Below, one piece after another: positions 10,221 to 14,074 of a stretch of 64,000 nt of DNA; within the stretch, counting starts at the first letter, position 1; each line of letters begins with the position of its first letter. The notes beneath the pieces were generated by a model, which saw nothing but the letters and a program-made list of their open reading frames with translations, ran no database searches and was not told the DNA's origin. Source of the DNA: Alkalispirochaeta americana (GTDB lineage Bacteria > Spirochaetota > Spirochaetia > DSM-27196 > Alkalispirochaetaceae); contig NZ_FTMS01000008.1 of NCBI RefSeq assembly GCF_900156105.1, forward strand, positions 1-64,000. Direction: 5' to 3'. The translations under genes were made by a program, and so were the position numbers.

Positions 10221-11893
10221 GTGGTTGCCTCGATAACGGAGGCCAGTGTTTTCTCAGCCTGGCCCTCTTTCAGGGCCTTCGATGCCAGCCGAACTCCCTC
10301 GTCGATAGTCTGGACGATCCCGTAGACCATGAGCGCTGCCCCGGCGTTCAGTGCAACTGCATCGTGCAGGGCATCCAGGACCGGGCCAGACTCACCCTGA
10401 AGCAGGCGAAGTGCCATTTCGGCGTTTTCCTGGGGATCTCCCCCGACAAGCAACTCCGGCTTGTGGGTTTTCAGACCGTAATTGTCCGCCTGAATCACAA
10501 ACTCTTCGAAGGTGGTCCGTTCCAGAAGCTTCTGCCCGTCACGATCTTCTCCGGCAGAGGAGCTGTCGGCAGAGCCCCCGTCGGGCTCTCCTCCTTCCAC
10601 AGAGAAAGAAACGATCCGCGTGGGGGCGCATACGCTGATCTCGTCCTGCCCGTCCAGGCCGTGAACCACCATGCCCCGACGCCCCCCCAGCAGAACCGCC
10701 GCCCGTGCAACAGGATGGAGATATTCCTCGGAGAAAACCCCGATGAGTTGATACCGGGCCCCCGCCGGATTCACCAGAGGCCCCAGGAGATTCATGATCG
10801 TCTTGATCCCCAGCTGTTTTCGTGCCGGCCCGGCAAAACGCATTCCTCCGTGGTACAACGGCGCATAGAGGAAGGCAAAGCCTGCTGTTTCCAGGGCCTG
10901 GCGGGCCTGGTCCGGCGTTATTTCCACTCCGATCCCCAGGGCACGGTAGAAATCGGCGCTTCCGCTGCGGGAACTCACCGCTCTGTTCCCGTGTTTTGCC
11001 ACTATAGCACCGCAGGAGGCGGCCACCAGGGCGGTGAGAGAACTAATGTTGAAGGTACCCAGACCGTCACCGCCGGTTCCACAGGTGTCCAAAAGAGGCC
11101 GGTCCATCGAAAGAGGAACCCGCTTGCGCTGTAAAACCCGGGCACACCCGGCGATCTCTTCAGGGGTAATTCCCTTGGCGTTCAACGCCACCAGAAAGCC
11201 TGCAATTTGGGCATCCCCCAGATTTCCGTCGGTGACCTCCTCCATGAACTCCTCGGCTTCCCCAAGGGAAAGATTCTCTCCGGCGATCACCCGCTCCAGG
11301 GTTTTGCGAGGTTTGAAGGGCTCCCTGCGGTAGTTCAGGAAGTTGGCCAACACCTTGAGCCCACTCTCGCTGCCAATCGACTCGGGGTGGAACTGAACCC
11401 CCTCCAGAAGGTACTCCCGGTGACGAATCCCCATGATTTCACCATCTTCTGACCAGGCCGTCACCTCCAGCTCCGGAGGCAGCGTCTCGGGATCGATCGC
11501 CAGGGAATGATAGCGGACAAACTCGGCCGGGGAATCGATAGAGCGGAAAAGCCCCTTTCCGTCGACCCGAATTCGATCGGTCTTTCCGTGGACGATCCGG
11601 CGAGCACTGATGGTACGTCCCCCGAAGGCCTCCCCGATGGCCTGGTGTCCCAGACAGACCCCCAGAAGCGGTATTACCCCTCCGTAACGGCGGATTACCT
11701 CCACAGAGATACCCGCCTGGGCGGGGCGTCCCGGCCCTGGCGAGATCACGATCCGTGAGGGGTTTCGCCGGGAGATTTCTTCCAGAGTAATCTGATCGTT
11801 TCGAACCACCTGAAGGGGTTCCTCGGTGAGTTGCGCCAGATACTGGTAAAGATTGTGCGTAAAGGAATCATAGTTATCGATTATGAGAATCAT
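10217..11893 (-). CDS. trpGD: Fused anthranilate synthase glutaminase / anthranilate phosphoribosyltransferase
   Basis: The 558-residue protein joins TrpG and TrpD. Residues 1 to about 190 are a class I amidotransferase beginning [15 protein letters not shown], with the nucleophile Cys80 in [15 protein letters not shown]. From about 200 the phosphoribosyltransferase domain follows, with [16 protein letters not shown] and [15 protein letters not shown]. The glutaminase supplies ammonia to TrpE; the TrpD part makes phosphoribosylanthranilate. Its start overlaps the trpE stop by 4 nt. A similar fusion exists in E. coli, here combined with a trpCF fusion in the same operon. Confidence 0.96.
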
Positions 11894-13302
11894 AGGTTGC
11901 CCTCCAGACCTACGGCCTTCATCAGGGCCGATAATTTTTCCCGGGTCTCTTCAAACTCCCGCTCCGGCCGGGAATCGTAGACAACTCCCGCCCCGGCCTG
12001 CAAGACAAGTTCGTCTCGTATGCGAAGCCCTGCCCGGATGGTGATGCAACTGTCCAGGTTTCCACCCGGTTCCAGATAGGCCACCACGCCCGCGTAGAAC
12101 CCCCGGGGCACCGGCTCGGTCTGACTCACCGTCTCGATAGCCCGGATCTTCGGAGCACCGCTCACTGTTCCTGCAGGGAAGGTGGCGCGCAGAGCGTCAA
12201 CGCCAGTCTTTCCCGGGGCCAGATCCCCTTCCACCTGGCTCACGATGTGCATGACCCGGGAGTAGCGTTCCACCTTGTGATAGGCGGTCACCTCCACCGA
12301 GCCAGGCTGGCAGACTCGACCCAGATCGTTCCGGCTCAGATCAACCAGCATCAGATGCTCGGCAAGCTCCTTGGGATCTCCCAGAAGCTCTCTCTCAAGA
12401 TCACGATCTTCCTGATCGGAGGAGCCTCTCCGGCGAGTTCCCGCGATGGGTCGCATCAGGGCCTTTCCCTTTTTGACCCCCACGTGCGTTTCCGGGGAGG
12501 CCGCAAAAAGCTGAAACTGATCAAAATCGAGAAAGACCAGATACGGCGCGGGATTGGAGGAGCGCAGCCTCCGGTACGCCTCCAGGGCTGGCATATCCGT
12601 GCGCACCCGGCACCGCCTGGAAAGAACTCCCTGGAGAAGGTTCCCCGCGACAATCTCACCCTGGATTTTCTCCACGCCCTGCTCGAAGCGGCTTTGATCC
12701 TGGGAGTCAAAGATCGGTTCTGCCGTGTAGTCTGCCTGCTGATCCTGAAGATAGTTAAAGTCAAAATCCTGAATTTTCCGCTCCGTCTCCCGGAGGGCTT
12801 CTTCCAGATTGATTCCCCTTTCGCGATAATTCAGGCCAATTAAATAGAGAAGATCGCTGTAATGATCAAAGACCAGCAGAACGTGGCCAAAGAGAAAGGC
12901 TGCATCGGGTATCCCCAAAGGATCGGGCAGGTCAGGAAAGGAGATGGAATCGCAGAAACGGGAGAACTCATAGGAAAGATACCCGATCCCCCCCGCAGGA
13001 AAGGGAAAATCCTGCTGTGGTCCCCGATGCTGATCGGCAAAGTAGGAGAGTACGTCAAGAATGTCTCGAGCGTTACTGCGAATCTGATACCGCCGCGAAC
13101 CATCGTCAAAGTAGATCCCCCCACCCCGCTGATACACCCGGAAGGCCTCCTGCACGACCAGCAGTGAATAGCGGGCACGGCCACCCTCAAAGGTGGCAGA
13201 TTCCAGAATGACCCGGGCCTTGAGCTTGCACGCCAGCCCGTAGGGGGTGAATCGTTCCCCTGAAAGAACCTTGATAATCTGGTTATCGCCTTGATGTTCC
13301 AT
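11890..13302 (-). CDS. trpE: Anthranilate synthase component I
   Basis: It converts chorismate to anthranilate with ammonia from TrpG, the committed and normally tryptophan-inhibited step. The chorismate-binding C-terminal domain shows PIAGTRRRG and [18 protein letters not shown]. The N-terminal part has [11 protein letters not shown], corresponding to the inhibitor-binding ESA region. Two ATGs 18 bp apart (13302 and 13320) each have the same GGGAGGAACG ribosome site because of a perfect duplication, so six-residue longer and shorter forms could both be made. The shorter is listed. Expression should be set by the attenuator immediately upstream. Confidence 0.96.
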
Positions 13303-13335
13303 CGTTCCTCCCGTTGGCATCGTTCCTCCCGTTGG
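13300..13335 (-). repeat. Perfect 18-bp duplication of the trpE ribosome site and start codon
   Basis: CCAACGGGAGGAACGATG occurs twice in direct succession on the coding strand (13335-13318 and 13317-13300). Each copy contains a GGGAGG Shine-Dalgarno sequence and an ATG, and 18 bp keeps the two starts in frame. Confidence 0.95.
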
Positions 13336-13338
13336 AAT

Positions 13339-13364
13339 AAAAAAAAGCCGCGTTCTCACGCGGC
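13339..13364 (-). terminator. Intrinsic terminator of the trp attenuator
   Basis: On the coding strand GCCGCG (13364-13359), loop TGAGAA, and CGCGGC (13352-13347) are followed by eight T (13346-13339). Flanking AAAA pairs with the first T residues, giving a stem of up to 10 bp. It ends just before the duplicated trpE ribosome sites. Confidence 0.93.
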
Positions 13365-13371
13365 TTTTCTA

Positions 13372-13420
13372 CCGCGGACCAGTGAGCACCGGTCCGCATA
13401 ACATGTTTCAGGAGCGGACC
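13372..13420 (-). promoter_or_regulatory. Competing stem segments of the trp attenuator
   Basis: Segment A, GGTCCGC (13420-13414), can pair with segment B, GCGGACC (13397-13391). B can instead pair with C, GGTCCGC (13380-13374), forming an 11-bp stem GCGGACCGGTG/CACTGGTCCGC with one G-T pair. The end of C, CGCGG (13376-13372), can pair with CCGCG (13363-13359), the 5' arm of the terminator. If a ribosome stalls at the Trp codons, A:B plus C:D form and transcription continues. If it reaches the stop codon it covers A, so B:C forms and the terminator folds. The pairings are seen; the switching is inferred. Confidence 0.82.
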
Positions 13421-13423
13421 TGT

Positions 13424-13495
13424 TTACACGGCCCACCACCACTGAAGAGATGTCTGGTTGAGATATCCTGCTGAAGGGGTTGCTTCCTTCTTCAT
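13424..13495 (-). CDS. trpL: trp leader peptide with three consecutive Trp codons
   Basis: A 23-residue ORF starts MKKEATPSAGY and ends SLQWWWAV, then TAA. Three adjacent TGG codons (13441-13433) lie just before the stop, as in classical trp leaders. The following RNA contains mutually exclusive hairpins and an intrinsic terminator. No Shine-Dalgarno sequence is present; the ATG lies 7 nt after the TAAAGT -10 element, so it is probably translated from a leaderless mRNA. Stalling at Trp codons when charged tRNA-Trp is scarce should relieve termination before trpE. Confidence 0.9.
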   Translation of the reverse strand: MKKEATPSAGYLNQTSLQWWWAV

Positions 13496-13502
13496 GGAAT
13501 AA

Positions 13503-13532
13503 ACTTTACCCCCATCAGGAATACAAGGTCAA
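13503..13532 (-). promoter_or_regulatory. trp operon promoter
   Basis: Leftward, TTGACC (13532-13527) and TAAAGT (13508-13503) are 18 bp apart; GTAAAG at 17 bp is an alternative -10. The predicted start coincides with the leader peptide ATG at 13495. The promoter lies between the ssb terminator and trpL, so the trp operon is an independent unit. Confidence 0.7.
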
Positions 13533-13624: not shown

Positions 13625-14074
13625 CTACAGAACGTTAACCTCGGCCTCCATGTCCCGGGCAGAAATTATATCGCTGTAATCATTATGCTCCTCCGCCGGA
13701 TCCTCCTGATCGTTCCCAAGACCGGGGCCCTCCGAAGAGGCCCTCTTGGGAAGAGATCGAAATTCTACATGCTCGGCAACAATTTTGACCCGGGACCGGG
13801 ACTGTCCTTCGGCATCTTTCCAGCGATCCTGTTTGAGTCGGCCCACTACCCGGACCCCTCTTCCCTTTTTGAGGTATTCGGCACAGTTTTCCGCCAGGCG
13901 GGCCCAGGCCTCGACATCAAAAAAGGAGGTTTCATCCTGGGGCTCGTCGTTTTTCTTGTAGCGATAGTGCGTTCCCAGGGCGAAATTGCAGACCGAAGTC
14001 CCCGAGGGGGTGCTGCTCAGAACAGGGTCCCTCGTGAGATTTCCCTCCATGAGGATGGAGTTAAGATCATTCAT
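13625..14074 (-). CDS. ssb: Single-stranded DNA-binding protein
   Basis: The 149-residue protein has an OB fold beginning MNDLNSILMEGNLTRDP, with FFDVEAWARLAENCAEYLKKGRGVRVVGRLKQDRW typical of bacterial SSB. It protects single-stranded DNA and recruits repair and replication proteins. AAAGGAG precedes the ATG. The C-terminal tail is acidic but ends EAEVNVL instead of the usual DDDIPF tip that binds partner proteins. It is monocistronic, with its own terminator. Confidence 0.93.
   Translation of the reverse strand: MNDLNSILMEGNLTRDPVLSSTPSGTSVCNFALGTHYRYKKNDEPQDETSFFDVEAWARLAENCAEYLKKGRGVRVVGRLKQDRWKDAEGQSRSRVKIVAEHVEFRSLPKRASSEGPGLGNDQEDPAEEHNDYSDIISARDMEAEVNVL

Follow-up and report, generated by a model that had tools for sequence, protein, structure and literature searches.

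A likely ribosome-mediated trp attenuator with six pairing segments on a predicted leaderless mRNA in Alkalispirochaeta americana

Introduction

How does the spirochaete Alkalispirochaeta americana adjust the transcription of its tryptophan genes? The window analysed here, a stretch of 64,000 nucleotides, carries on its minus strand the cluster trpE-trpGD-trpCF-trpB-trpA. Its first gene, trpE (11890..13320), was identified by homology search, and trpGD, trpCF, trpB and trpA, downstream of it, were assigned from their translations. An earlier note, made from the sequence alone, had proposed for the region preceding trpE a ribosome-mediated trp attenuator of five RNA segments on a leaderless mRNA. 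The core of this proposal is supported by the present analysis, with a transcription start predicted from promoter distance, and the number of segments and the default state are revised. The locus is very likely a ribosome-mediated trp attenuator with six pairing segments, built on the three-hairpin design of his attenuators, and with an mRNA starting at the leader AUG. The basis for this is the sequence itself, the conservation of both sets of pairings, the geometry of the leader, its predicted folds, and the lack of TrpR matches in the genus.

Results

Elements of the trp leader

All elements given below are on the minus strand. The promoter, of the sigma-70 type, consists of a -35 box TTGACC (13527..13532), read in the sequence and of which TTGAC is kept in 6/6 congeneric leaders, and of a -10 box TAAAGT (13503..13508), recognized from the sequence and the congeneric leaders, with an 18-nt spacer between them. 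The trpL leader ORF (13424..13495) has 23 codons and encodes MKKEATPSAGYLNQTSLQWWWAV. Its ATG (13495-13493), 7 nt past the -10 box, is at the predicted transcription start and has no Shine-Dalgarno sequence. Three adjacent Trp codons (WWW, 13441-13433) precede the stop codon (13426-13424). Segments A (GGUCCGC, 13414..13420), B (GCGGACC, 13391..13397) and C (GGUCCGCGG, 13372..13380) were delimited from the sequence and from pairing in six species. Segment D (GCCGCG, 13359..13364) is both the 5' arm of the terminator and the 3' arm of the antiterminator. The 3' arm of the intrinsic terminator is segment E plus its T-run (13339..13352), with E, CGCGGC, at 13352-13347 and T8 at 13346-13339. The whole terminator (13364-13339), a GC-rich hairpin followed by T8, is thus placed between trpL and trpE. 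A sixth segment, Z (GUGGGCC, 13430..13436), overlaps Trp codons 2 and 3 of trpL; it was recognized in MFE folds and in the six-species alignment, and pairs with A.

Folding of the leader RNA of the window, which had been suggested as a check, gave -67.3 kcal/mol, compared to -46.7 +/- 3.95 for shuffled sequences (z -5.2; 0/200 shuffles), and it is this fold that revealed the extra helix Z:A. A generic promoter and terminator scan returned 1 promoter for 0.9 expected and missed the terminator; alone, it is no evidence. Rfam was searched with the leader at gathering and permissive thresholds: Trp_leader was unmatched even at E up to 10, and only sub-threshold matches, to other leaders and sRNAs, were obtained.

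Conservation in the genus

We compared six congeneric trpE leaders, that is all those that could be read, window included. We excluded the L005 region (G001), a probable misassembly: at a contig end, the frame preceding its trpE match opens with a sequence resembling an ABC-transporter ATPase. The promoter, the leader with its terminal WWW[A/T]V and stop, the segments and the T-run are also present in the five other genomes. Leader length is 23-24 codons, with a variable N-terminal part and a constant WWW[A/T]V-stop end. The distances from the first Trp codon to A (21 nt) and from the stop codon to A (6 nt) are invariant in 6/6 species; loop lengths vary, from 14 to 19 nt between A and B, and from 6 to 11 nt between C and D. 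Among the helices of the terminator state (Z:A, B:C and D:E), 99.2% of the alignment cells are paired, vs 28-47% when one side is slid. For the read-through helices A:B and C:D, these values are 100% and 25-46%. Much of these percentages is plain conservation, and the argument from spacing is the stronger one.

Several points of the earlier note can be judged on these data. Promoter, leader peptide, WWW, segments A to E and T8 were all found where it had placed them. The geometry it described, with A just outside a ribosome sitting on the Trp codons and covered by a ribosome at the stop codon, is borne out by the two invariant spacings. The attenuator reading would have been refuted had WWW or the alternative stems been lost in close relatives, and both are kept in the six species. 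The search upstream of trpE in relatives for covarying stems had a mixed outcome: the stems are conserved in six species, but covariation is weak, as most stem columns are invariant and a single double change is found, a number also reached by shuffles. In one of these genomes (L006, G005), an in-frame insertion of ~70 bases splits the trpE match at residue 67.

Predicted leaderless starts

We next read the upstream regions of ~100 trpE genes across the class Spirochaetia. A leader with at least two closely placed Trp codons was present in 39 of them, and in 37 of these 39 the start codon is 6-10 nt behind the -10 box, without a ribosome site (automatic search window of 3 to 44 nt; L147 was read by eye). 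The exceptions, L176 and L182, belong to one family and have a normal ribosome site. In the genome of the window itself, 51 sites show the arrangement TTGAC-TANNNT-ATG with a distance of 6-9 nt before the ATG. Controls gave 21 (five being copies of one repeat) and 23 sites at two other distances, and 25 sites when GAT replaced ATG. Reading 49 of the leaderless-type sites (G000, L195-L243), we found 41 open frames of at least ~100 codons, and two further sites encoding proteins of 92 and 94 residues, so that judging by the sequence, at least 43/49 appear to open real-looking genes. By eye, we take some of the products to resemble serine hydroxymethyltransferase, SecA, and leucyl- and alanyl-tRNA synthetases. 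From the excess over controls and this proportion of genes, leaderless starts seem ordinary, and leaderless mRNAs common, in this genome, which suggests that leaderless initiation is a normal mode of translation in this group. The leaderlessness of trpL is, as a prediction, well supported.

An attenuator functioning as described below, but transcribed from some nucleotides further upstream, would have a short 5' UTR and an mRNA that is not truly leaderless. Across the class, the distance of 6 to 10 nt from -10 box to start codon would indeed leave room for a UTR of 0-4 nt in some leaders. The recurrence of the same close promoter distance without ribosome site in nearly all leaders of the class, and the 51 genomic sites vs 21-25 in controls, most of them opening genes, argue against such a UTR, which we consider rather unlikely. 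None of the 49 sites read in this genome was a further amino-acid attenuator. A trpB-like gene (L222) is among these leaderless-type starts.

A sixth segment and the predicted default state

With five segments, the earlier note expected an untranslated leader to read through, the opposite of E. coli. Both points have to be amended. The count is one short, as Z, at the Trp codons, pairs with A in 6/6 species, and the MFE fold of the free RNA contains Z:A, B:C and D:E, i.e. the terminator state, in 6/6 species. Folds and alignment together give a six-segment layout, with hairpins 1:2, 3:4 and 5:6 vs 2:3 and 4:5. Standard pairs occupy 100% of the Z:A cells in the six-species alignment: Z contains GGGCC in the window and in L007, and GGACC in the other species, both of which pair with GGUCC, and the helix is longer in L003 (GGACCG:CGGUCC) and L004 (GGACCGU:ACGGUCC). 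Since Z pairs with A in every species, the free RNA adopts the terminator state, and the predicted default of an untranslated leader is termination, as in E. coli.

Helix energies differ clearly for B:C (-15.6 to -20.6 kcal/mol) vs C:D (-8.5 to -10.9 kcal/mol), and are almost equal in some species for Z:A vs A:B (-13.0 vs -13.8 kcal/mol in L001). Because of this small margin, the default of the untranslated leader is not equally secure in all species, and we keep a low probability for the inverted scheme, in which the region before A stays unpaired, A:B and C:D form on the untranslated leader, and transcription reads through. This scheme draws on the stability of A:B, which in isolation matches that of Z:A in several species, and on the free RNAs of L002 and L007, which prefer A:B at equilibrium when they end right after B. 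It is contradicted by the MFE folds, where A is not free, by the maintenance of Z:A in six species, with a perfect complementarity that extends further in L003 and L004, and by the short loop of Z:A, which lets this helix form before B exists. Altogether, we find the inverted scheme improbable. The closeness in energy of Z:A and A:B also leaves a slim chance that the leader may read through when its 5'-end AUG is loaded too late by a ribosome, in which case it would report on leaderless initiation as well as on tryptophan.

Folding around the ribosome

Returning to the six-segment attenuator, we folded the leader with a ribosome at various positions. Briefly, the ribosome was assumed to cover nucleotides up to +16, counting from the first position of the P-site codon; these were removed, and the remainder was folded up to the base before E. 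In the free RNA of the same extent, Z:A and B:C were favoured (0.99 and 0.95 in L001), clearly so in five species, and about half of the time in L002. With a ribosome at the stop codon, B:C formed in 6/6 species. With a ribosome on the Trp codons, the pair A:B and C:D was clear in L002 and L006, mostly present in L007, and only partial in L001 and L003; at equilibrium, B:C was still ahead in this stalled state in the window sequence (0.78-0.96) and in L004. When the RNA of the stalled complex ended just after B, before C, A:B reached 0.92-1.00 in 6/6 species. As the stalled equilibrium favours B:C in the window sequence, read-through would require A:B to be in place by the time C is transcribed, as is commonly the case for attenuators.

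From these structures, we infer how the leader might be translated, fold in real time and respond to tryptophan. Without a ribosome, Z:A would form first, having a short loop and being complete before B is transcribed, then B:C would form, and D would be left for E, leading to a stop. When charged tRNA-Trp is short, a ribosome would stall on WWW, covering Z and sparing A, so that A:B could pair; C, thus freed, would hold D, E would have no partner, and trpE would be transcribed. When tryptophan is ample, a ribosome at the stop codon would cover both Z and A; B:C would form, followed by D:E, and transcription would stop.

TrpR and a candidate operator

TrpR (PF01371) was detected in 274/395 genomes of the class, and no match was found in 7/7 genomes of the genus. 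In a set of 106 regions preceding trpE, GTTTCT-N6-AGAAAC, a palindrome counted when 11/12 or more of its positions matched, was present in 60/65 TrpR-positive vs 6/41 TrpR-negative genomes (Fisher ~1e-16), and a Trp leader in 28/41 TrpR-negative vs 11/65 TrpR-positive genomes (Fisher ~1e-7), these tests being uncorrected for relatedness and some assemblies being incomplete. No palindrome at this threshold precedes trpE in the genus. G007, from another genus of the same family, encodes TrpR, carries operator-like palindromes and lacks a Trp leader. Judging from this distribution, GTTTCT-N6-AGAAAC is a good candidate for the spirochaete TrpR operator. The palindrome is near the trp promoter in L012, L025, L155, L162 and ~60 other trpE upstream regions (L111-L190). 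In L023, L117 and L120, whose leader ORFs start at positions 82, 282 and 248 of the oriented upstream region, it is inside the first leader codons (VSINRN); in these three, the operator candidate overlaps the leader peptide, suggesting an apparent dual control.

Alternatively, the operon might have a plain intrinsic terminator next to a chance Trp-rich ORF and, like that of other spirochaetes, be regulated by a DNA-binding protein. This notion is in keeping with the TrpR-type operator candidate found before trpE in most TrpR-positive spirochaetes, but neither TrpR nor such a palindrome was found in the genus, and eight families of the order have leaders in which competing stems accompany Trp codons that are adjacent or nearly so, which makes it highly improbable. 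In this genus, where TrpR was not found, tryptophan control of the operon is probably exerted mainly by the leader attenuator, which seems to stand in for the tryptophan repressor of most related spirochaetes. Three hairpins were present in the MFE folds of 21/25 TrpR-negative and 5/11 TrpR-positive leaders, families not being independent; that three hairpins accompany TrpR loss is only suggestive.

Relation to known attenuators

The E. coli trp attenuator has four segments and a Shine-Dalgarno sequence before trpL, and TrpR acts in addition. The present leader shares with it tandem Trp codons, competing stems, a terminator before trpE and, as we infer, the direction of the response; it differs by its six segments, the absence of a ribosome site, and TrpR not being found. 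In the his operon of Salmonella, which has no repressor, an extra hairpin follows the pause hairpin and precedes the terminator, and in a model this hairpin ensures a low basal read-through (PMC1183508). The extra hairpin and attenuation without a repressor are common to the his attenuator of Salmonella and E. coli (PMC1183508) and to the leader described here, which concerns tryptophan, a predicted leaderless mRNA and a spirochaete; no sequence relation is claimed. The trpL (rnTrpL) transcript of Sinorhizobium meliloti starts at the trpL AUG, in an operon without transcription repression (PMC7298713), and thus resembles the start predicted here and the lack of a repressor. There, the leader has 14 amino acids, and the attenuated RNA and the peptide also act in trans (PMC7298713). 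Streptomyces lividans trpL1, MFAHSTRNWWWTAHPAAH, is on a leaderless mRNA and contains WWW (PMC8079986). Both traits, the former as a prediction, and a terminator before trpE are found here as well; S. lividans is an actinobacterium with a monocistronic trpE, for which two hairpins are described (PMC8079986).

As far as the sequence can tell, the attenuator is real and conserved, looks functional, and belongs to a known kind. Each of its features is already known. In the literature searched, which was mostly without subscription papers, we came across neither an account of spirochaete trp attenuators nor one of this combination in spirochaetes. The class offers a natural experiment, with genomes having TrpR and operator, genomes having both TrpR control and a leader, and genomes having the leaderless attenuator only. 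It makes testable the idea that attenuation-only operons need an extra hairpin for low basal expression (PMC1183508).

Other observations at the locus

Two further features flank the leader. A terminator-like hairpin, GGGAGGGAA...TTCTCCCTCCC followed by T6, lies at 13617-13550 (minus strand), between the trp promoter and ssb (13625-14074). On the other side, trpE has two in-frame ATG (13320 and 13302), each preceded by GGGAGGAACG. They are part of a perfect 18-bp tandem duplication, CCAACGGGAGGAACGATG (13335-13300, minus strand), which results in two trpE starts, each with a ribosome site, and is absent from the closest relative, L002.
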